The translations under genes were made by a program, and so were the position numbers. From positions 1 to 40,200 of the IMG/VR virus record IMGVR_UViG_3300045118_000528: a stretch of 40,200 nucleotides of DNA; one strand, 5' to 3'. The first letter of the stretch is position 1; each line of letters begins with the position of its first letter. Below the pieces are notes generated by a model. The model ran no database searches. It had not been told where the DNA came from and saw only the letters and a program-made list of their open reading frames with translations. The DNA is from a virus. This document shows, piece by piece, positions 8,576-33,476 of the stretch.

Positions 8576-9358
8576 ATGAACCGACAAGGCCCCGGCAAAA
8601 TTGAATGGACGGATTATACTTGGAATCCAGTTACTGGCTGTAAGCACGGCTGCGACTATTGCTATGCCCGTCGAATCGCCGAAAGATTCGGCCCTTCCGA
8701 CCAGGAATTGGATTTGATTCTTCAATTCCATCCACTTATGAATACCTATTTGCAGGAGCCAATTTTCAACGAGAAAAGACAATTTGCCTTCCCTTTTCGA
8801 TTTTATCCAACCTGCCATGCCTACAGATTCAAAGAGCCGCAAGAAATTACCAAGCCGAGCAAAATATTTGTTTCTTCAATGGGCGACCTCTTCGGCGAGT
8901 GGGTTCCCGCCAGTTGGATTCAAAAAATATTAAGCATAGTGCGATCCTGCCCCCAACATACTTTTCAATTCCTCACTAAAAACCCAGGGCGTCTTCCTGA
9001 CTTCAATCCCTGGCCAGAAAATTGCTGGGTGGGTTTTACCGCGACAACAGGCCGGGAATTCAGCGACAATAGTTTTCGAGGTTGGCGCTGCGAAGCAAGG
9101 CTGCGTTTTGTTTGTTTCGAGCCAATATTAGAGATGATGGATGGCGTTTGGCTGGAAGGCTATCAATGGGTAATTATTGGAGCGCAGACAGGCCCGAAGG
9201 CGAAATCAGTCCCAACCGAATGGATAAGTGAATTGCTTGGTCGTGCGGCTATCCATAAAGTTCCCATCTTCATGAAATCCAACCTCCGCCCTTACTGGCC
9301 GGGCGAGTTGAGGCAGGAGTTTCCGAGACAAACAGATGCAAAGGAGAAAAGCAAATGA
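8576..9358 (+). CDS. DUF5131 (phage Gp37/Gp68) radical-SAM-like protein (260 aa)
   Basis: Begins with the family hallmark IEWTDYTWNPVTGC and C22-x3-C26-x2-C29, the spacing of radical-SAM [4Fe-4S] clusters (GCKHGCDYCYAR). Later segments FVSSMGDLFGEW, TFQFLTKNPGRL and WVIIGAQTGPKAK are also typical of DUF5131. The family is widespread in phages; its reaction is not established to my knowledge, though the fold suggests a SAM-dependent radical chemistry. ATG 8576 follows GGAAGCGAG. Its stop overlaps the next gene by four bases. Action on nucleotides or DNA is a guess from the phage context. Confidence 0.85.
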   Translation: MNRQGPGKIEWTDYTWNPVTGCKHGCDYCYARRIAERFGPSDQELDLILQFHPLMNTYLQEPIFNEKRQFAFPFRFYPTCHAYRFKEPQEITKPSKIFVSSMGDLFGEWVPASWIQKILSIVRSCPQHTFQFLTKNPGRLPDFNPWPENCWVGFTATTGREFSDNSFRGWRCEARLRFVCFEPILEMMDGVWLEGYQWVIIGAQTGPKAKSVPTEWISELLGRAAIHKVPIFMKSNLRPYWPGELRQEFPRQTDAKEKSK

Positions 9359-10300: not shown

Positions 10301-10708
10301 ATGATTTTTCTCACCATCCCTGGCAAGCCTATCGCGAAAAAACGGCCGCGCTTTGTTAGGCGGGGCAATTTCGTGGGTGCATATAATTGCCAAGAAACCG
10401 AAGAGGGCAGGTTTTTATTAGAAGTCAAAAGGCAATTAAAGGGGAAACCCCTAGAAGGGCCTTTAAGCGTAACTTATTATTTCTTTTTTCCTGTTCCCAA
10501 GGGTATCAGCAAAAAGAAACGCGAACTGATGCTACAGAATAAAATTAAACATACCAAGAAGCCCGACCGCACTAACCTTGAGAAATTTGTGGAAGATTGC
10601 TTGAATGGAATTGTTTGGCGAGATGACGCGCAAGTTTGGAGCGGCGGGTCATGCAAACTATATGCGGAAGAACCCAGAACAGTGATAGAGATAGAAGATG
10701 CCGAATAA
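10301..10708 (+). CDS. rusA: RusA-family Holliday junction resolvase (135 aa)
   Basis: Has the RusA profile: FLTIPGKPIAKKRPRF at the N-terminus and KKPDRTNLEKFVEDCLNG with WRDDAQV at residues 86-112. The family resolves four-way DNA junctions created by recombination, before packaging. Acidic residues D89, D99, D108 and D109 are present. The second Asp of the usual D-x-D-N catalytic pair is replaced by Thr91 (D-R-T-N), a variant I believe also occurs in some phage members. GTGAGGGA precedes ATG 10301, and the gene overlaps the next by 11 bases. It completes a set with the nuclease and Bet proteins. Confidence 0.85.
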   Translation: MIFLTIPGKPIAKKRPRFVRRGNFVGAYNCQETEEGRFLLEVKRQLKGKPLEGPLSVTYYFFFPVPKGISKKKRELMLQNKIKHTKKPDRTNLEKFVEDCLNGIVWRDDAQVWSGGSCKLYAEEPRTVIEIEDAE

Positions 10709-13307
10709 ACGAGTCTGTCAAAACTGCGGCCATTATGACGAAAAAAATAATCTCTGCTGGATAGGCAATAAGGGCACTTGCCGTTTCCCTTTAATGCCGA
10801 AGAGCGGTCTTAATTATCGGCGACCCAAGGGGTTTCCGCAAAGAGGCGGCTATACTTCACCTGGAATAACTTTAATAATTGCGGATTTCAGCGCGGATGT
10901 TTTGTCCGGTGTCTGTCCGCTAATAGTTCAATTCACAGATGATTCTATTGGCAATCCGACAGGTTGGCTTTGGGATTTCGGCGATGGAAATACGAGCGAT
11001 GAGCAAAATCCAAGTCATCAGTATATTGTTCCTGGAACTTATACGGTTAGTCTTACGGCAAGCAAAACTGGTTCAAGTGATTCCATAACCAAGACAAATT
11101 ATATTACTGCGACTGAATATGTGCCTCCCATTAACGCCGCTTTTCATGCAAATATATTTTCTGGCGATTATCCGCTATCAGTTAATTTCACCGATGATTC
11201 GACAGGAAGCCCTGTAGTCTGGTCGTGGAGTTTTGGCGATGGCGGCACTAGTGCTTTACAAAACCCTTCACATATTTATACCGCAGAAGGAACTTATACG
11301 GTTACCCTCATTGCCTCTAAACCAGGTTCAACCGATACGGAAATAAAGATAGCCTATATTACGGTCAGCGCGCCTGCACCCGCAGTAGTGGCGAACTTTA
11401 CCGCGGATGTAGTTAGCGGGGATGCACCCTTGACGGTGAATTTCACCGACACCTCTTCGGGTTCTCCCGTAACCTGGCTTTGGGATTTTGGGGATACAAG
11501 CAGCAGCACTTTGCAGAACCCGATACATGAGTATAGTAGCGCGGGAACTTATACCGTTACCTTGACGGCCTCCAAACCTGGTTCTTCGGATGATGAAGTC
11601 AAGACGAATTACATCACCGTTACCGAGGCGGAAGTGCCCGCCTTCGATGGCACAATAGAGTCCTATGCCACGATTGTTAATTCTTCTATGTATATTCGCC
11701 CCCTTCCAACGGCATGTGTGGCAGGCAGATTTTATTATCGGGTAAATGGTGAGTCCACTTGGGTTCAAGGCCGCGATCCGATTGAATGCGTGGCGAACTC
11801 ACTTCTGGAGTCGAGGGATGGCCAGGGGGCTTATGAAGATTTGGATGTGGTTTTGACAGAGGAAGGGGCAATGATTCGCCGCTTCCACGCCTCGGCGCGA
11901 AATTTAACGCCTGAAACGCTGTATGATTTAAAGATAGAATTGTTGGATTCAGGAAACAATATCCTATCGGTTGCAACTACTACTGCCACCACTAAATCTG
12001 AATCTCTCACCTATGGCACAGGGACTACCCGCCGCTATCCCTCTGGCGGTTATGGTTCGATTCAAGCGGCTTTTAACGCTTGCTCCGCGGGGGATATTCT
12101 CATAATCGAGGCAGGCAATTATTACGAGCAATTATATGTTAACAAGAGCGGCACGGTTGGTCAGCCGATCACCATTCGCGGTGAAGGCACGGCGGTCTTT
12201 GCCAATAACGGCGTGGTATCAATTCCTGTGCAGATAACCGATGGCGTGCATGACATCAATTTCGAGTATCTGGATTTTGATGGACTGCATATTAACAGTC
12301 CCCATCGCCGAGAACATATACTGGCTCAGGGCAAGGAATTTACCCGCATCTGTTTCGATAATTGCGATTTCACAAGCGCGGCGGTGGCGGACACGGCTTA
12401 TTTCATTTTTTGGGAAACCTGGAATCGGGGGGCGGGGCCGGGGTTTGTGGATTGTCGAATACAAAACTGTTCATTTACCGCCACTGGCGCAATGGCAAGC
12501 ACCTCCAAGCCGCTCTATATTGACCACGGCAAGGGTTTAATATTCTGGAATAACACCATAAATGTCGGCTCTTGCGAGGATGTAGTGGCTATTCGCCGCG
12601 GCCCGCATAAAGACTTCGATATTTACGAGAACACCATTACCGGCAACCCGACCGATGACGGGATGGAATGCGAGGGCGGGGTCAATATAAATGTGAGAAT
12701 TTGGAATAATACTTTCAACTTCGATGGCGGCCAGCGGGCCAGCATATCCCATACCCCCGTGCTGGTAGGCCCGATTTATGCCGACCACAACACCATCTAT
12801 GGCGCAGAGCAGTTTATCAAATGCGCGTCAAATCTGGTTATCTCCTATATCCAGCAGGGTTACAGTCCCGCGGATTTTGGCCCGATTTATTACGAGAACA
12901 ATACCTTCTATGCCAAGTCAAGCAAGTGGTCAACCCATCAATTCCTGCGCTATAACCGATTGTGTCATATCAACTTGATTCTAAAGAACAATCTAATTTA
13001 TGGCGACCGGCTCGACCAGGAGGCGGGATATTACACGACCATTTCCCGAACCTCGGAGAACTGGGGGCAACTCGACTTTGATTATAATATATGGTGGGAT
13101 GGAAATGGCACGAACCCGAACGCGGCTTATGACCTAGACCTGCATAGTCTCTTCCAAGACCCGTTATTAGTGAGTTCGTCCTGGCCGAACCCCGATGTCC
13201 ACCTACAGGCGGGTAGTCCCGCGATTGACGCGGGAATTGAGATAACCCAGGTTACGGAGGGTTATTTGGGCGATGCGCCAGACTTGGGGAGATATGAGAA
13301 GGCCTAA
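10698..13307 (+). CDS. PKD-repeat and beta-helix surface protein (869 aa)
   Basis: Domain order: a Cys knuckle (C7, C10, C20, C28); three PKD domains at about 60-140, 147-224 and 231-308, each with W-x-FGD; a probable fibronectin-III-like domain at 318-430; and a right-handed parallel beta-helix from about 440 to the end, resembling pectate-lyase-like or tailspike folds. No signal peptide or membrane segment is visible. PKD domains commonly bind polysaccharide, and beta-helices degrade or bind glycans, so a depolymerase, fibre or adhesin is plausible. It lies on the early strand, apart from the tail genes. The start overlaps rusA and has a weak ribosome site. Confidence 0.8.
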   Translation: MPNKRVCQNCGHYDEKNNLCWIGNKGTCRFPLMPKSGLNYRRPKGFPQRGGYTSPGITLIIADFSADVLSGVCPLIVQFTDDSIGNPTGWLWDFGDGNTSDEQNPSHQYIVPGTYTVSLTASKTGSSDSITKTNYITATEYVPPINAAFHANIFSGDYPLSVNFTDDSTGSPVVWSWSFGDGGTSALQNPSHIYTAEGTYTVTLIASKPGSTDTEIKIAYITVSAPAPAVVANFTADVVSGDAPLTVNFTDTSSGSPVTWLWDFGDTSSSTLQNPIHEYSSAGTYTVTLTASKPGSSDDEVKTNYITVTEAEVPAFDGTIESYATIVNSSMYIRPLPTACVAGRFYYRVNGESTWVQGRDPIECVANSLLESRDGQGAYEDLDVVLTEEGAMIRRFHASARNLTPETLYDLKIELLDSGNNILSVATTTATTKSESLTYGTGTTRRYPSGGYGSIQAAFNACSAGDILIIEAGNYYEQLYVNKSGTVGQPITIRGEGTAVFANNGVVSIPVQITDGVHDINFEYLDFDGLHINSPHRREHILAQGKEFTRICFDNCDFTSAAVADTAYFIFWETWNRGAGPGFVDCRIQNCSFTATGAMASTSKPLYIDHGKGLIFWNNTINVGSCEDVVAIRRGPHKDFDIYENTITGNPTDDGMECEGGVNINVRIWNNTFNFDGGQRASISHTPVLVGPIYADHNTIYGAEQFIKCASNLVISYIQQGYSPADFGPIYYENNTFYAKSSKWSTHQFLRYNRLCHINLILKNNLIYGDRLDQEAGYYTTISRTSENWGQLDFDYNIWWDGNGTNPNAAYDLDLHSLFQDPLLVSSSWPNPDVHLQAGSPAIDAGIEITQVTEGYLGDAPDLGRYEKA

Positions 13308-21997: not shown

Positions 21998-22134
21998 TTC
22001 TTCTTGCCCCTATGTTTGAAATATTCCACCTGGCGTAAGCGTTCAACGGCTTGCTCTTTTGTCGGATATGGGCCACCCAAGTTCTTGCCAGTTTCACTAA
22101 CCACCCGATAGCCTTTTTTTACTTTCCGAATCAT
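21994..22134 (-). CDS. Small basic phage protein (46 aa)
   Basis: Start ATG 22134 is chosen because GGGGG lies at a normal distance and the product then reads MIRKVKKGYRVVSETGKNLG. The remainder (PTKEQAVERLRQVEYFKHRG) fits a widespread small phage protein with a strand-strand-helix fold resembling KGYxVVSxTGK...A...LRAVEYFKH. A longer upstream frame to 22185 crosses the plus-strand promoter and is unlikely. Function unknown; it is the first gene after the sialidase-like insert in the late transcript. Confidence 0.65.
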   Translation of the reverse strand: MIRKVKKGYRVVSETGKNLGGPYPTKEQAVERLRQVEYFKHRGKKK

Positions 22135-22152
22135 CGCAAACCCCCGTTTGTC

Positions 22153-22182
22153 TTGATTTTCTGCCCTCACACCCGCTATAAT
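22153..22182 (+). promoter_or_regulatory. Candidate promoter of the sialidase-like gene
   Basis: TTGATT (22153-22158) and TATAAT (22177-22182) are 18 bases apart, a near-consensus sigma70 promoter on the plus strand. The predicted start near 22189 leaves a very short leader with GAGGG ahead of ATG 22198. It would give this gene transcription independent of, and opposed to, the late operon. Confidence 0.65.
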
Positions 22183-22197
22183 CAAAGTGAGGGATAT

Positions 22198-23322
22198 ATG
22201 AAAAGATTTAGTCTTTTACTCTTCTTTTTATTATTGGTCGTCAGTTGCCAAGCCTCGACTATTCCAATTGGCACGGTCATTCATTACAGCCCTGCCGCAT
22301 CGGGTAATTACATCGGCGACCCGCAAATCCTTATTCTGCCTGATGGTTCTTATCTCGCTTCTCATTGCTATTTCAATTTTGTAATTCCAGGCTATGCGAA
22401 TAATCGCACTTTTCTATATAAATCCACGGATAAAGGGCAATCCTGGCAATTCCTTATTAAATTCACAGGCTTGACTTCTGCTAACCTCTTTCAATATAGA
22501 AATAAGGTTTATCTCATGGGCATTACAGGTTATGTTCGCCGCCAGCCCCATGCCGTTACCCTGCGCTATTCTTCCGACAGCGGCAAAACCTGGTCTAGTC
22601 CAATTGAAATTCTCAAGCCCGACCTCTGGAATCTCCAGCCTATGCCCTTTCTGATTCATAATGGGCGCCTCTATCATGAAATAGGACTCATGCGATTGCC
22701 CTGCCGCTCCTGGTTGGATAATGCTACTTGTGTTATCTCTGCCCAGCTAAATTCCAATCTTATGTCCGCGGCTAGTTGGTCTGTTTCTAAACCGCTTTTC
22801 TTTGACCCCGCATGGTATCCAAAAGGCACTACTCCAGGTTGGAGTGAGGGAAATATCTTGGAATATCGCGGGAAACTCTTTAATATCTTGCGGGTCAATT
22901 CCGAACCCCAAACAGGGGTGGCCGCAATAACTTCTTTCAAGGGCGAGAGTCTTTCTTTTAATCCTAAAACTGACTTCATTTCTTTGCCTGGCGGCATGAG
23001 CAAATTCGCTATTCGTTATGATTCCAAGAGCCGCCGCTATTGGTCTATCTGCAATCCCGTTGGCAATCCCGCCAATGCCCGCCAGCGCAATATCGTTGCC
23101 TTGGTTTCTTCCGCCGACTTGCGGAACTGGAAGACCCACTGTATTCTATTTGTTCTCCCTGGCGATGATACGCTTGTCGGCGCGCATTATTTCGACTGGC
23201 AATTTGATGGTAACGATATTATCGGGGTGTGCCGGTTTGCTTGGAAAGGCGCGCATTCCTACCACGATGTTAACTATTTCACCTTTCATAGATTTAAGAA
23301 TTTCAGGCAATCCAACCGATAG
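22198..23322 (+). CDS. Sialidase-like lipoprotein with Asp-box motifs (374 aa)
   Basis: The N-terminus is a lipoprotein signal peptide: MKRF, a run of Leu/Phe, and lipobox LVVSC with the lipidated Cys at 17, followed by Gln, typical of outer-membrane sorting. Two Asp boxes, S76-T-D-K-G-Q-S-W83 and S125-S-D-S-G-K-T-W132, indicate a sialidase/BNR beta-propeller. Catalytic residues of GH33 cannot be confirmed by eye, so glycan binding or another hydrolase is possible. It is the only plus-strand gene in the late block, with its own promoter, like a moron. It may alter host surface glycans or block superinfection. The ends at 23322 and 23338 converge within 16 bases. Confidence 0.75.
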   Translation: MKRFSLLLFFLLLVVSCQASTIPIGTVIHYSPAASGNYIGDPQILILPDGSYLASHCYFNFVIPGYANNRTFLYKSTDKGQSWQFLIKFTGLTSANLFQYRNKVYLMGITGYVRRQPHAVTLRYSSDSGKTWSSPIEILKPDLWNLQPMPFLIHNGRLYHEIGLMRLPCRSWLDNATCVISAQLNSNLMSAASWSVSKPLFFDPAWYPKGTTPGWSEGNILEYRGKLFNILRVNSEPQTGVAAITSFKGESLSFNPKTDFISLPGGMSKFAIRYDSKSRRYWSICNPVGNPANARQRNIVALVSSADLRNWKTHCILFVLPGDDTLVGAHYFDWQFDGNDIIGVCRFAWKGAHSYHDVNYFTFHRFKNFRQSNR

Positions 23323-28087: not shown

Positions 28088-28726
28088 TTACCATCGTAAA
28101 GAAGACGAAATAAATGTTGGCCCCGCGGTGGGATTGGCAACAATGCTTTGAAGTTGCGTGATAGCCGCCCCATACATTGCCAGAAACTTTGCCCCCTCCT
28201 GCTGGTTCGCATCAGGGTCGCCTAATTTCAGGAAATAACACGCATAGAGGGCAATCGCAGCCTTGAAATAATCTGGAAAATCGCTCGATGCCGAATCCGT
28301 GCTGAAATCGGAAGGCACATTATAAGAATACATCTTGATAACTTTTGCCGTTATATTGGGGCATGGATAAAGCCTGAATTTGCCCGTGGTATCTCCATCC
28401 GTCCAACACCAGGGGGTTCCATTGCCATCGCTTCGCCAATCGGGATAATCGTTCGATAATTGGCTTTTAGTGCGATATTCCAGTTCAGTTTCATCCCCGT
28501 CCCAGCATATCTTGAAAAAGCCCAGCGCGTTTGAGGGATAACTATATTCCGCCGTTCCCTCAGTGGAAGTTGTGCTGGTTGTAATGACTCTAATGTAATT
28601 CGTATCAATCGCGGCTTGTTTGCAGGCTTCATAGATAGCAAGATTCAATTTTGCGTCTGTGAAAAAATCTGTAGCCGATTCCGCCAACAGATTCCGTATC
28701 ATCGTTTTAATTTCGCTTCTGGTCAT
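28088..28726 (-). CDS. Head-tail adaptor protein (212 aa)
   Basis: ATG 28726 is used because GGGATAAAGAG precedes it and it falls four bases after the glycosyltransferase stop; a longer frame would overlap that gene. The sequence (MTRSEIKTMIRNLLAESATD, DAKLNLAIYEACKQAAID) starts with the helical bundle common to adaptor/neck proteins of the gp4/gp6 type. The middle is beta-rich, and the end returns to helices (DYFKAAIALYACYFLKLGDP). It should join the portal to the tail. Normally this gene directly follows the capsid gene, but here six genes lie between. Confidence 0.75.
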   Translation of the reverse strand: MTRSEIKTMIRNLLAESATDFFTDAKLNLAIYEACKQAAIDTNYIRVITTSTTSTEGTAEYSYPSNALGFFKICWDGDETELEYRTKSQLSNDYPDWRSDGNGTPWCWTDGDTTGKFRLYPCPNITAKVIKMYSYNVPSDFSTDSASSDFPDYFKAAIALYACYFLKLGDPDANQQEGAKFLAMYGAAITQLQSIVANPTAGPTFISSSLRW

Positions 28727-28730
28727 CTCT

Positions 28731-29513
28731 TTATCCCTGCGCGCAGAGTTGGTAAATTTTGTTCGCGGGCATGGCGGCAATTTGCGGACTTTTCAGGATT
28801 GCCACACTTTTTTCAAACATATTCCGTCGGCGCGTTTGGCGGCGATTGGCTTCCTGTTCCCCTAATTGACGGATTAAAAGTTTGCGACTGGAATTTAAGG
28901 GATGCAGATATTTAATTTTTTCATCGTAAACATGCGCCCAGCGAATCCCCTTGGCATAAGCCACCGCGCTCATTATGGTGTCTTCAAAACCCCAGCCCGC
29001 TTCCTGATATTCGGCTACTTCTGGGAAAGGTATTTCCTGCAAGAACGGTTTGCGGTAAATGCCGACATTCGTGCAAGAAGTTTGGCTTTCATGCACCTCC
29101 CGCAATTTATCCAATTTGTCTGTGTAATTATTGCTATCCGCGGTGCAGAGCGCGGGATATATGCTTATCGCCCGATGTTGCGGGTTTTCATCCAGGTATT
29201 GATTCGCCAAGGCAATCCAGCCGCGAGGGATTAAAATATCTCCATCTAACAACATAACTCTGCTGTATTGGGCCAAAGTCACACCATAATTGCGGGAGCG
29301 CGAAACCCCCTTGTTTTCCTCAAACAATTTCAGTTTATCTATCAGGCCGCATTTCAGGGCTTCCCGCAAATAAAAAGGCGTGCCATCTTTAGAGCCGTTA
29401 TCCATTACGATTATTTCCCCTTCGCCAATTTCTTCCCGCGCCCGAATAATGCAGCGGCGATGATACGGCTCTAACAGATTCCAGGTGGAAATTACTATTG
29501 AAGTGCGCGCCAT
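28731..29513 (-). CDS. GT-A glycosyltransferase (family 2-like, 260 aa)
   Basis: N-terminal STWNLLEPYHRRCI and IIVMDNGSKDGTPFYLREAL give the nucleotide-sugar fold of family 2. NKGVSRSRNYGVTLAQ and the LLDGDIL D-x-D motif (metal and sugar-nucleotide binding) follow, and GWGFEDTIM supplies the catalytic acidic motif. It transfers a sugar to an unknown acceptor. AAAGGGGAA precedes ATG 29513. It overlaps a second glycosyltransferase by 19 bases. Placed inside the capsid/adaptor block, it probably glycosylates a virion or host-surface component during assembly. Confidence 0.85.
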   Translation of the reverse strand: MARTSIVISTWNLLEPYHRRCIIRAREEIGEGEIIVMDNGSKDGTPFYLREALKCGLIDKLKLFEENKGVSRSRNYGVTLAQYSRVMLLDGDILIPRGWIALANQYLDENPQHRAISIYPALCTADSNNYTDKLDKLREVHESQTSCTNVGIYRKPFLQEIPFPEVAEYQEAGWGFEDTIMSAVAYAKGIRWAHVYDEKIKYLHPLNSSRKLLIRQLGEQEANRRQTRRRNMFEKSVAILKSPQIAAMPANKIYQLCAQG

Positions 29514-30151
29514 TTCCCCTTTAATTTCTCCATATGCCGCAAGTCTATAGCAAAGTAATTGCGGCTATCGTGATGGTGGTAAATTATGGCTTGCGGACAA
29601 TCTTTTATTTCAAAACCCGCGGCCTGGATGCGCCAGGACAAATCTATGTCTGCGCCATAATAAAAATTTTCATCATACAAGCCTAGATACTCATATAAAA
29701 AGCGCGGCATTAGGCCTTTGGCGACATAGCCTAAACTCTCGCCATTCGGCTGTTCTGCACCCACAATTTGCTCTTTTTGGTGTTGCCCGAAAAGTATCTT
29801 GAAAGCCACCTGCCCGACATTGCCCTTACAGCAATTTATGGCCTCTATTTCCCAGCCTGGGGATACTTCAGCATCTTCCGAAAACGGCAGGGTAAGATAA
29901 AGACCCTGCGCCTGCATGATGCAGCGATTCGCATTGCCCGGCCAGCCCTTCACAGCCTTGTGATTTGGAAGATATATTATGCGCGAACGCAATGCGCCTG
30001 GCAGCCTAGCGTAAAGTTTTTCCGTATCTTCGGAATTATCTCCGACAATTATTTCATATTCCACCTGGGTATTTTTTATAATGCTTTCCAGTAGGCGTTC
30101 TAGATGTTCTGGCGCATCTTTGCTAGTGATGATGACGGATAGAAGCGGCAT
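29495..30151 (-). CDS. GT-A glycosyltransferase, second copy type (218 aa)
   Basis: MPLLSVIITSKDAPEHLERL and YEIIVGDNSEDTEKLYARL are typical of family 2, followed by KGWPGNANRCIMQAQGLYL and a D-x-E-type metal motif (PFSEDAEV). The acceptor region has GADIDLSWRIQAAGF, a conserved GT2 element. The sequence is clearly different from the neighbouring 260-residue enzyme, so the pair may add two distinct sugars or linkages. It overlaps genes on both sides and is part of one cotranscribed cassette. Confidence 0.8.
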   Translation of the reverse strand: MPLLSVIITSKDAPEHLERLLESIIKNTQVEYEIIVGDNSEDTEKLYARLPGALRSRIIYLPNHKAVKGWPGNANRCIMQAQGLYLTLPFSEDAEVSPGWEIEAINCCKGNVGQVAFKILFGQHQKEQIVGAEQPNGESLGYVAKGLMPRFLYEYLGLYDENFYYGADIDLSWRIQAAGFEIKDCPQAIIYHHHDSRNYFAIDLRHMEKLKGKWRALQ

Positions 30152-30500
30152 CGCTTCGTGCCATTTCTCTGGCTTTCTCTTCTGGAATACTATTTAAGAC
30201 CGGAGACTTGAAAGATTCGGACGGGGGATAGGCAATCGCGCCTTCACAATCAATATTTGTGTTGTAAACTCCATGCACCGGAATAAAAGGCGGGGCTTTT
30301 TGGGGGGCAATCTCTTCAATATTCTCCACCTGTTTTTGTTTTAATTTTTCTATGCCAGCAAATTCCAAAAATTTCCAAAGAATACTGCCTGGAATCTCGG
30401 CTTGGGCATGAGCGCGGCAGACATACTCAATTTCATTCCATAGCACTTTTACATCTTTATCACTATTATTTTTGATGATAATTACTTCAGGCATTCCCAT
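30123..30500 (-). CDS. Hypothetical protein of the glycan-enzyme cassette (125 aa)
   Basis: Two adjacent starts exist (ATG 30500 and 30494); both overlap the methyltransferase stop. The product begins PEVIIIKNNSDKDVKVLWNE, a small beta-domain, followed by a helix (ILWKFLEFAGIEKLKQKQ) and a Pro/Ser/His-rich disordered tail ending RHHH. The N-terminal half resembles short phage proteins near capsid genes, some of which bind the capsid. It could be the acceptor or an adaptor for the flanking sugar enzymes. Function is unknown. Confidence 0.55.
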   Translation of the reverse strand: MGMPEVIIIKNNSDKDVKVLWNEIEYVCRAHAQAEIPGSILWKFLEFAGIEKLKQKQVENIEEIAPQKAPPFIPVHGVYNTNIDCEGAIAYPPSESFKSPVLNSIPEEKAREMARSDAASIRHHH

Positions 30501-31128
30501 ACCATTCGGCGACCAGATGATTCTCCCCTTGCTCTATCTGTTTGAAAGCATATTTTTCTTTTATCAATTCATCCACCGCGCGTTGCAGGCCCGGATATTG
30601 CGGCGAATAATCATGCAGCCACATCCGCCCTTTATGTTTAAGCAATTTGCGGTAAAGGATTATATCGTTATAAACATTGTCGTATTGATGGGAGCCATCT
30701 ACCACAATAAAACTACAACCGCTTTTTAAAAATTGCCCCGCCATAAAAGAAGTCGCGCTGATAACAAAGGAATAATCCCCCGTTCCCCATTTTCTCTGCA
30801 TCGCCTTGTAAATGGCATATTCGCCGTAGTCATTCCAAGTATTGTCCGTGCTTTCATAAAAAGCATCTATGGAAACCAGATAATTGTATTTAGTCGGCAA
30901 ATCCATCAATACGCGTGAAATAAAAGCCGCAGTCTCCCCCCAATAAGTGCCAATCTCGATTACCCAGTCATTGTCTGCGGTAACGGTTTCTTTTATATGA
31001 AAAGCCATAGAGCGTAGGCAATCGGCCGTCATCATTTCGGGCCGGTCGAAACGGGCGATAAGTTGCTCTAAATCTAATTTTGCGGCTTTATTTTTGGAAA
31101 GCAATTTAATTTTCCGTCTGGACTGCAA
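30487..31128 (-). CDS. Class I SAM-dependent methyltransferase (213 aa)
   Basis: Motif I (VIEIGTYWGETAAFISRVL) and the later SFIVVDGSHQYDNVYNDIIL, RMWLHDYSP are the hallmarks of Methyltransf_24-type enzymes that methylate sugars or small molecules. The start is uncertain: TTG 31128 overlaps the previous gene by 55 bases, and TTG 31104 is possible. Between two glycan-related genes it most likely O-methylates a sugar added by the cassette, which would cap or shield a glycan. No direct proof. Confidence 0.75.
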   Translation of the reverse strand: MQSRRKIKLLSKNKAAKLDLEQLIARFDRPEMMTADCLRSMAFHIKETVTADNDWVIEIGTYWGETAAFISRVLMDLPTKYNYLVSIDAFYESTDNTWNDYGEYAIYKAMQRKWGTGDYSFVISATSFMAGQFLKSGCSFIVVDGSHQYDNVYNDIILYRKLLKHKGRMWLHDYSPQYPGLQRAVDELIKEKYAFKQIEQGENHLVAEWYGNA

Positions 31129-31688
31129 TCGAATATTCGCCCTCGACCCGCTAATTCCGAGAGAAATTCAAAGCCGCGATGCATTAAATTCCACCCATGC
31201 TCATAAACCTCTTTGGATTGGCAAAGGGGCTCTTCCGTGCAATAAACCTGCTTATCTGGGCCCAAAGATAAATCCACGCCGCATAGATAAATTGGGTTGC
31301 ATTCGGCAATCAAAGCAATGTGCAAAGCCGCATGACTGCTCGTGCCATCGGCAATTATTTTTCCTGCCGTGCTTTCCAGCCGGTAATTCTCTACTTCTTC
31401 CCAATGGAAACTATCGAGAATAAAGGGATGCCGGACGCAGATAAATTTCTCACCAAACAATTGCGGGGCCTTTTTGTAAATCAGCGAAAAATTGTCATCC
31501 GCGGTTATCAGATATTTAGGCTTTTTTAATTTATTCTCTTCAAAATAGCGGTAAGCCGCATTAACCGCAAAGACCGGATAGCGTTGCAAAAAGGCGGCGG
31601 GCAATTCCCGCAAAGACCAGCCAGAAGCCGCCACAATCGCGGGCTGGCCTTGATATATTCCAGTTAAAAAACTATATTTGCTATTCAT
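31074..31688 (-). CDS. MptE/DUF115-like glycan-associated protein (204 aa)
   Basis: The N-terminus GQPAIVAASGWSLRELPAAF recalls the G-x-P-A-xx-V-xx-G-x-S-L motif of DUF115/MptE-like proteins. PKYLITADDNF and NPIYLCGVDLSLGPDKQVYC with the G-x-D-x-S motif continue the fit. Such proteins occur with surface-glycan, flagellin-glycosylation and sialic-acid-type loci. It might transfer or activate the first sugar. ATG 31688 overlaps the end of the preceding gene by eight bases and lacks a separate ribosome site, so coupling is likely. Confidence 0.7.
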   Translation of the reverse strand: MNSKYSFLTGIYQGQPAIVAASGWSLRELPAAFLQRYPVFAVNAAYRYFEENKLKKPKYLITADDNFSLIYKKAPQLFGEKFICVRHPFILDSFHWEEVENYRLESTAGKIIADGTSSHAALHIALIAECNPIYLCGVDLSLGPDKQVYCTEEPLCQSKEVYEHGWNLMHRGFEFLSELAGRGRIFDCSPDGKLNCFPKIKPQN

Positions 31689-32166
31689 AAGATTTTACGC
31701 GGCGCAATTTCATTTTAGGCGTAGGGTCGGGTTCTACTCTTATATCCCCGCCACCGAATTTCTCCTCCAACCCCTTTTGTATCGCGCGCTTGTAATATTT
31801 GATTTGCTCCTTAAATTCTTCATCCTGATTGGCTTTTTCTTTTTCTTTATGCTCATGGCCCGCTTTCCACCACTTTAGAATATTCTGCCGCCCGCCTCTG
31901 CGCGTGTCCCAATAAGCCAGCACTTCCGCCAGCCAAGGGCCGGGGTCGGCAATCGCCCCATCCGGCATTATGCAATTCATCAGTTTGTAGTAATCGCCAT
32001 TGCAAAATCTGAATTGATATTCCTCGGCTTCATTGGCATCACGAGGAATAGGCAGCCCTGGGCGCATTTTGAGCCATACCTCCCACCAGCCGTTTTCTTT
32101 GTCAAAGACCACAAAAAGCCGCTTGTCTAAGCGCGGCAAATTATCTTCTGCCCATTTATTACGCAT
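31681..32166 (-). CDS. Hypothetical late protein next to capsid (161 aa)
   Basis: ATG 32166 (MRNKWAEDNLPRLDKRLFVV) is preferred; the longer frame to 32220 includes the hairpin after the capsid gene. No Shine-Dalgarno sequence is clear. The N-terminal domain has several Trp residues (ENGWWEVWLKMRPGLP), a central GDYYKLMNC segment and a lysine/glutamate-rich helical tail (HEHKEKEKANQDEEFKEQIK) with basic C-terminus. It may be a small head or neck protein. I cannot name a family. Confidence 0.55.
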   Translation of the reverse strand: MRNKWAEDNLPRLDKRLFVVFDKENGWWEVWLKMRPGLPIPRDANEAEEYQFRFCNGDYYKLMNCIMPDGAIADPGPWLAEVLAYWDTRRGGRQNILKWWKAGHEHKEKEKANQDEEFKEQIKYYKRAIQKGLEEKFGGGDIRVEPDPTPKMKLRRVKSYE

Positions 32167-32182: not shown

Positions 32183-32211
32183 GGGCAGGGGCGGAGAGCG
32201 CGCCCCTGCCC
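32183..32211 (-). other. 11-bp hairpin directly after the capsid gene
   Basis: GGGCAGGGGCG (32183-32193) pairs perfectly with CGCCCCTGCCC (32201-32211) around a seven-base loop. It lies 18 bases downstream of the major capsid stop in the minus direction. No T tract follows in that direction, so it is likely a partial terminator or a 3' stabiliser that raises capsid mRNA, rather than a full stop, since the next gene follows at 32166. Confidence 0.55.
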
Positions 32212-32228: not shown

Positions 32229-33476
32229 TTAGGCCGCGGAAGCATTATTGATGGTAATACCAGGAACATAGGCATGGGGCTTGTAAGCCGTTGCCACTAA
32301 GCCAGAGGTATAACAAATCAATTTGCTTGCAACCGTATCAGTCGAAGCCCCGCCTGGCAGCCAGCCCTCTGGGTCGAGATGAGGGGCTTCTGTCCAGTTC
32401 ATTTCCAGGAATTCTAGATTCAGGAATACCGCCGGGGCCGTGGTCGCAGATTCAGGGCAATATGGGTCTTCGATAACCTTTATGCCATTGTAGGAAAATT
32501 CATTGCGACCAAGCGAAAGTTGCGGCGCGCCGCCCGCGGTGGCCGTCGGCATATTGTAGTGAATTTTGTTGTCGGCCAGATAATACAAAGAGTTGCATAC
32601 ACCTGGGCTGGTAACAATCACTTTTCTATCCGATTTATTGGCCCCGCCGTTGGTTCGCATCGCGGCAATTCTCGGCAAGAAAGTCGAGTTGATATTATTA
32701 CCCGCGGCAGTTGTGCCGTTGGCATAAGTCCAGATATTGCTGGAACGGGTCAGGCCATTTATGCTGGTAACTGCGGCTGCGCCCCACAGCGCAGTTGTGC
32801 CATCATAAAGAATACCGCCCAAACCCATCGGTTCAATATCTTTGTTCCCGTCAATATAAACTATGTCATTGTCGGCATAGTTTTGCGACGCGCTTGCGGT
32901 AAACTGGGTTCCGCTGTCAACACTAGATATTGTGGTGTCGTCAAGACCAGCCCCTACATCTAGTATCATTCCATCGGAAAGATATTGTGTTCCAGGGGTA
33001 TCCACAGCAATCGTTGTGCCAGCGGAAACCGCGCCGTTAATCAGGCACAAGTGGCCTGTGCCAGTTCCCCATAAAACGCGCGCCATATTACGCGCAAAAC
33101 CGAGATTCGCCGTATTGATAGCCTCGGTTGTCGCGTCAATCAGCGCGGCTTCTTTGCCGCGTCCAAATTCCCGTGCCGGCCCGGTCAGCGTGATAGGCCA
33201 ATACAAATAGCGCGCAGGCACTACCTGTTCGGCATAATCCGCCGGAATCGCGGTTCCAATAGTCCCTCCTTCTGCGCGGGAATAGAAACCCGCAGCACGG
33301 GTCTTGCGAGCAGGTCTCAGCCAGCCCGATGTGCGGCCCTTAAAATCTAGCGTCCTTACTTCAGCTTTCACCAAATCAAAAAGGACGCTTTCATCCGAAT
33401 AGGCCGAGACAACGGGCGCAACCTGAATATATTTATTTATCTCAGCCAGAACAGTTCTGGTAATTTCTCCAGCCAT
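32229..33476 (-). CDS. Major capsid protein, HK97-fold type (415 aa)
   Basis: GAGGTGAAAT precedes ATG 33476, one of the best ribosome sites in the late block, fitting a highly expressed gene. The order is helical N-arm (MAGEITRTVLAEINKYIQVA), E-loop-like segment (GWLRPARKTRAAGFYSRAEG), a spine helix (EAALIDATTEAINTANLGFA), an inserted beta-domain (residues 140-230), and a final A-domain (DRKVIVTSPGVCNSLYYLAD, NEFSYNGIKVIEDPYCPESA). Length and genomic order after a scaffold and portal match HK97-fold capsid proteins. A strong hairpin follows it. Confidence 0.8.
   Translation of the reverse strand: MAGEITRTVLAEINKYIQVAPVVSAYSDESVLFDLVKAEVRTLDFKGRTSGWLRPARKTRAAGFYSRAEGGTIGTAIPADYAEQVVPARYLYWPITLTGPAREFGRGKEAALIDATTEAINTANLGFARNMARVLWGTGTGHLCLINGAVSAGTTIAVDTPGTQYLSDGMILDVGAGLDDTTISSVDSGTQFTASASQNYADNDIVYIDGNKDIEPMGLGGILYDGTTALWGAAAVTSINGLTRSSNIWTYANGTTAAGNNINSTFLPRIAAMRTNGGANKSDRKVIVTSPGVCNSLYYLADNKIHYNMPTATAGGAPQLSLGRNEFSYNGIKVIEDPYCPESATTAPAVFLNLEFLEMNWTEAPHLDPEGWLPGGASTDTVASKLICYTSGLVATAYKPHAYVPGITINNASAA

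Follow-up and report, generated by a model that had tools for sequence, protein, structure and literature searches.

Virion glycosylation has reportedly been described in mycobacteriophages and other actinobacteriophages (work attributed to Freeman et al., 2023). Pairs of glycosyltransferase and methyltransferase genes in Rhodococcus phages and other actinobacteriophages are interpreted as virion glycosylation systems in one source (PMC13313380), and glycans on mycobacteriophage capsid and tail-tube proteins have been observed according to a citation in another (PMC12619734). Such systems comprise phage glycosyltransferases, joined in some phages by a methyltransferase, and are presumed to modify proteins of the capsid and tail. 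The locus reported here has the same kinds of enzymes; it differs in belonging to an unrelated podovirus-like phage, in lying between the capsid and adaptor genes, in adding a DUF115-like protein, and in that its glycan is a predicted one. Here, we analysed a window that constitutes an entire virus record (40,200 bases; the record itself may be incomplete) from a little-known, podovirus-like phage. Judging from the sequence, we lean towards the view that its cassette is an accessory glycan set within the late structural module, which would decorate the phage's own particle.

Gene order and layout of the interval

The late genes follow the podovirus order along the minus strand: small terminase, large terminase, portal, scaffold, capsid, cassette interval, SU10-type adaptor, stabilisation-like protein and fibre. 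The 415-aa major capsid protein (32229–33476, minus strand) matched phrog_14242 (E = 2.3e-13) and scored 76.4 bits against the NCBIfam model capsid_maj_Podo (NF033394), just below its cut-off of 80. Membership of PF00535, PF13578, PF01973 and PF24175 was judged by a score over the curated cut-off, and the 212-aa SU10-type head–tail adaptor (28088–28726, minus strand) reached 77.3 bits against PF24175 (E = 2.7e-21, cut-off 27).

Between these two genes lie six overlapping minus-strand genes, four for glycan enzymes and two, the gene at 31681–32166 and that of a 125-aa protein, for products that are not sugar enzymes. An earlier note on this DNA had listed five open reading frames, all of which are present with the coordinates and strand that it gave; the sixth, 31681–32166, located between the capsid gene and the cassette, went unmentioned. 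From this gene down to that of the 260-aa glycosyltransferase, successive overlaps measure 8, up to 55, 14, 29 and 19 nt (55 nt being a maximum, as the start of the methyltransferase is uncertain), and a 4-nt gap separates the 260-aa glycosyltransferase gene from the adaptor gene. The overlaps suggest, rather than establish, the single transcript that the note had proposed.

Directly 3′ of the capsid stop codon, a strong terminator-like hairpin (32183–32211, minus strand) forms an 11-pair stem with 10 G–C pairs (RNA fold −27.1 kcal/mol, z −2.85), although its T-run is weak, so transcription of the cassette group may be partly independent of that of the capsid. The GC content of the cassette is 0.42–0.48 versus 0.46–0.54 in its neighbours, with similar codon use that also resembles that of the phage structural genes; by composition, the cassette is not clearly marked as foreign. 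A defence-system library search returned no match.

Elsewhere in the window, the plus strand encodes a 423-aa BNR-repeat-like protein (22051–23322; under the cut-off of PF13088). It begins close to a lipobox-like LVVSC and lies opposite in strand amid the tail genes, possibly as a host-derived surface gene. The 869-aa product of another gene on the early strand (10698–13307, plus strand) has three PKD domains and, towards its C-terminus, a possible beta-helix, and a DUF5131 protein is encoded at 8576–9358 (plus strand; PF07505, E = 6.5e-47).

The glycan enzymes

Profile scans bore out the enzyme identities read from the sequence in the earlier note, that of the MptE-like protein more tentatively. 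The 260-aa protein (28731–29513, minus strand) and the 218-aa protein (29495–30151, minus strand) are both family-2 (GT-A type) glycosyltransferases (GT2), scoring 52.1 bits (E = 9.6e-14) and 35.8 bits (E = 9.8e-9), respectively, against PF00535 (Glycos_transf_2; cut-off 23.3). The former carries the motifs LLDGD and GWGFED and matches the solved glycosyltransferase 6p61 (E = 1e-5), with nothing found by tblastn against phage records; the latter contains SEDAEV and GADIDLSWR.

The 204-aa MptE/DUF115-like protein (31074–31688, minus strand) scored 34.2 bits against PF01973 (E = 2.7e-8), just under the cut-off of 34.6. It also matched phrog_4603, annotated as 'alpha-2;3-sialyltransferase' (E = 1.5e-5), and, weakly, the KDO transferase WaaZ (E = 0.0026), and is probably a sialyltransferase-like glycosyltransferase. 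Its single-sequence structure model was useless (pLDDT 38), tblastn against phage records and a single-protein search of viral contigs found nothing, a PDB sequence search gave no meaningful match, and literature searches for DUF115 returned nothing.

The SAM methyltransferase (30487–31128, minus strand) comprises 213 aa from a TTG start, the true start possibly lying later, and passed the Methyltransf_24 cut-off (PF13578; 46.4 bits, E = 8e-12, cut-off 26.3). An AlphaFold2 model built from 34 phage sequences has a mean pLDDT of 78, with only residues 1–14 below 50, and E58, G60, D144, G145, H147, Y149, D155, H172 and D173 are invariant across the 34 phage relatives. A PDB sequence search gave no meaningful match. 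The best solved-structure matches of the model were the sugar O-methyltransferases MeT1, SpnH, MycF and NovP (Z 17.6–19.4); the window protein is predicted to share their fold, at ~15% identity. Since catechol methyltransferases follow closely (Z ~17), and matches differing by no more than 1 in Z count as tied, the fold favours a sugar substrate without proving or fixing it, and the protein is probably a sugar O-methyltransferase.

In none of the cassette proteins does a hydrophobic segment exceed 1.46 (Kyte–Doolittle, 19 residues), and all appear soluble, without membrane segments. A serotype-conversion (gtr) cassette was rejected on this ground, there being no membrane flippase or membrane-bound transferase in the cassette.

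The same property bears on the possibility that, in the infected cell, the enzymes alter a glycan of the host surface (polysaccharide, LPS or S-layer sugar), for instance to block superinfection or to prevent debris from capturing virions once they are released. Both GT2s distantly match enzymes that build polysaccharides, and the lipobox-bearing BNR-like protein and the PKD protein on the other strand may act at the surface. We nevertheless regard such a role as rather unlikely, given that the cassette contains neither a flippase nor a membrane-bound transferase, its late structural position and the parallels, described below, in the capsid–adaptor interval of other phages.

The interval in capsid relatives and in other phages

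Relatives were gathered by a DNA motif common to the capsid genes of the window and of phage MW202554, which yielded 18 viral contigs, many of them fragments. A single-sequence search found capsid relatives encoded by 15 of the 18, the nearest (L024) with 35% identity over 279 residues, and the adaptor was visible by Pfam in 11 of 19 records (the 18 contigs and MW202554). Single-protein searches of viral contigs with the capsid and portal found nothing, and a search of viral contigs with a two-sequence capsid profile was likewise unsuccessful.

Comparison of gene order with these phages, a check that the earlier note had proposed, indicates that the enzymes are accessory: the full set is absent from all 18 contigs, fragmentary as many are. 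MptE-like and Methyltransf_24 proteins had no match in the 18 contigs or MW202554, and GT2 occurred in two of these records, outside the capsid–adaptor interval. No conservation, therefore, links the cassette to this particular capsid. The cassette does lie between capsid and adaptor, as had been noted, but the usual adjacency of those genes, also assumed, does not hold, since they stand about 0.7 to 8 kb apart in the relatives. That interval normally houses small resident genes, so the four enzymes are the addition, and what they break up is an interval that was variable already, not a pair of normally adjoining genes.

We defined two families of such small genes between capsid and adaptor in the relatives, A and B. 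An HMM of family B, built from eight small proteins of capsid relatives and MW202554 with the window excluded, finds the 161-aa product of 31681–32166 (minus strand, ATG at 32166) with E = 1.2e-4, and hhalign gives a probability of 90.8% (E = 1.2e-6); by these profile comparisons, the protein belongs to family B and is not a glycan enzyme. In L156 and L157, both contigs of the same metagenome-assembled genome, a family B member directly precedes the adaptor, and a search with the family B profile added no loci to those already found. The 125-aa protein (30123–30500, minus strand), left unassigned by the earlier note, likewise had no match in our family scans or by tblastn against phage records. 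It is the best window ORF against the family A core, at a non-significant E = 0.16, and hhalign gave P = 0.006 (probability 6%); the likeness, which concerns the start of the protein, is not significant. This is suggestive only of membership in family A, and the protein may be an old resident of the interval, outside the enzyme set.

A glycosyltransferase-like gene was also seen between portal and scaffold in L157 (2211–2993), a phage contig of a Bacteroidetes metagenome-assembled genome; L156, its near sibling, stops short of that position.

Parallel loci were sought by a methyltransferase DNA motif alone, which occurs in at least 119 viral contigs; among the 50 of these searched whole, five contained an SU10 adaptor. 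In G050, the capsid is followed by Methyltransf_24, GT2 and the adaptor, in that order. In G036, two small genes come after the capsid, then GT2-like, Methyltransf_24 and GT2-like genes and, beyond some further genes, the adaptor. In G063, two small genes separate the capsid from Methyltransf_24 and a radical SAM/GT2-like protein, and an adaptor-like gene was assigned solely by its position. In G031, where the capsid was not identified by profile, the genes directly ahead of the adaptor encode a Nucleotid_trans glycosyltransferase, a DUF115-like protein (called from a weak alignment) and two Methyltransf_24. The interval of G051 instead holds a 385-aa protein without family matches, and in G039 the methyltransferase lies far from the adaptor.

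The same enzyme classes as in the window thus stand in or beside the capsid–adaptor interval of G050, G036, G063 and G031, although in different sets and orders, none with the exact combination, and with capsids that are distant or not recognisably related. The composition, which the earlier note had not recognised from elsewhere, does not stand alone: other phages combine GT2 with Methyltransf_24 in the interval, or a DUF115-like protein with Methyltransf_24 and another glycosyltransferase before the adaptor. The arrangement is real but not unique, and similar sets recur at the same place in other phages; as the loci were chosen via the methyltransferase, their number is not a frequency. More generally, phage Methyltransf_24 lies within 2.5 kb of GT2 in 20 of the 27 records having both, against 5.4 expected, although about eight of the 20 seem to be related fused proteins of a single group, which reduces the number of independent events. 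Some phage Methyltransf_24 share one frame with GT2, and predicted viral proteins with this methyltransferase fold bear GT2 or MptE-like names.

These comparisons also bear on whether the cassette is a passenger block, tolerated in a permissive interval without a specific link to the virion. The varying interval length in the relatives and the absence of the enzyme set from them would suit such a passenger. Its frames, however, are intact and overlapping, contain conserved motifs and resemble the phage structural genes in codon use; together with the repeated occurrence of these enzyme classes at this position in other phages, this makes the explanation improbable.

Probable decoration of the virion

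We return to decoration of the phage's own particle as the best explanation. The two GT2s and the DUF115-like transferase would build a short glycan of two or three sugars from host nucleotide sugars, and the methyltransferase would cap it by O-methylation of one sugar. Attached to a structural protein synthesised in parallel, the glycan would end up on the finished particle. The capsid, the fibre or the 125-aa protein, the candidates named in the earlier note, may be the acceptor. That the target is a virion protein is inferred, as are the chemistry of the sugars, the sequence of steps and any benefit, be it shielding, an altered surface or altered adsorption. Soluble enzymes on the late structural strand and the recurrence of similar enzymes beside the capsid or adaptor of other phages argue for this role, and, as in virion glycosylation systems, the glycosyltransferases are phage-encoded, with two GT2 genes inside the structural module; against it, the hairpin after the capsid gene may separate expression of the cassette from that of the capsid.

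Hypermodification of phage DNA bases with sugars, for which virus-encoded DNA-modifying glycosyltransferases offer a precedent (a reference cited in PMC12619734), is very improbable, as no base-modifying enzyme was recognised among the other window proteins scanned from this possibly incomplete record, and one member of the set is an O-methyltransferase with a sugar-modifying fold.

If the particle is indeed decorated, methyl-capped virion glycosylation would not be confined to actinobacteriophages but would extend to podovirus-like phages whose hosts are uncultured, the capsid–adaptor interval would be a place to look for it, and the purpose of sugars on phage particles would become testable across many lineages. 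A bolder proposal, which we hold to be doubtful, is that this interval serves as a general docking site for swaps of glycan enzymes among podovirus-like phages, with a small resident protein, such as that of 125 aa, as the dedicated glycan acceptor of the virion.

Other groupings of sugar-related genes were seen in passing. In L155 (2630–5640), a capsid-like gene, judged by eye, is followed by a sulfotransferase, a nucleotidyltransferase, an MptE-like protein and a second sulfotransferase, with the large terminase and then a Methyltransf_24 gene downstream. The 540-aa product of L152 (3590–5212) combines a radical SAM domain with a GT2-like stretch, and its gene adjoins Methyltransf_24 and the capsid. 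In L093 (5834–9534), Methyltransf_24, two GT2, a formyltransferase-like and an aminotransferase-like gene stand in a row, possibly a sugar-synthesis cassette.
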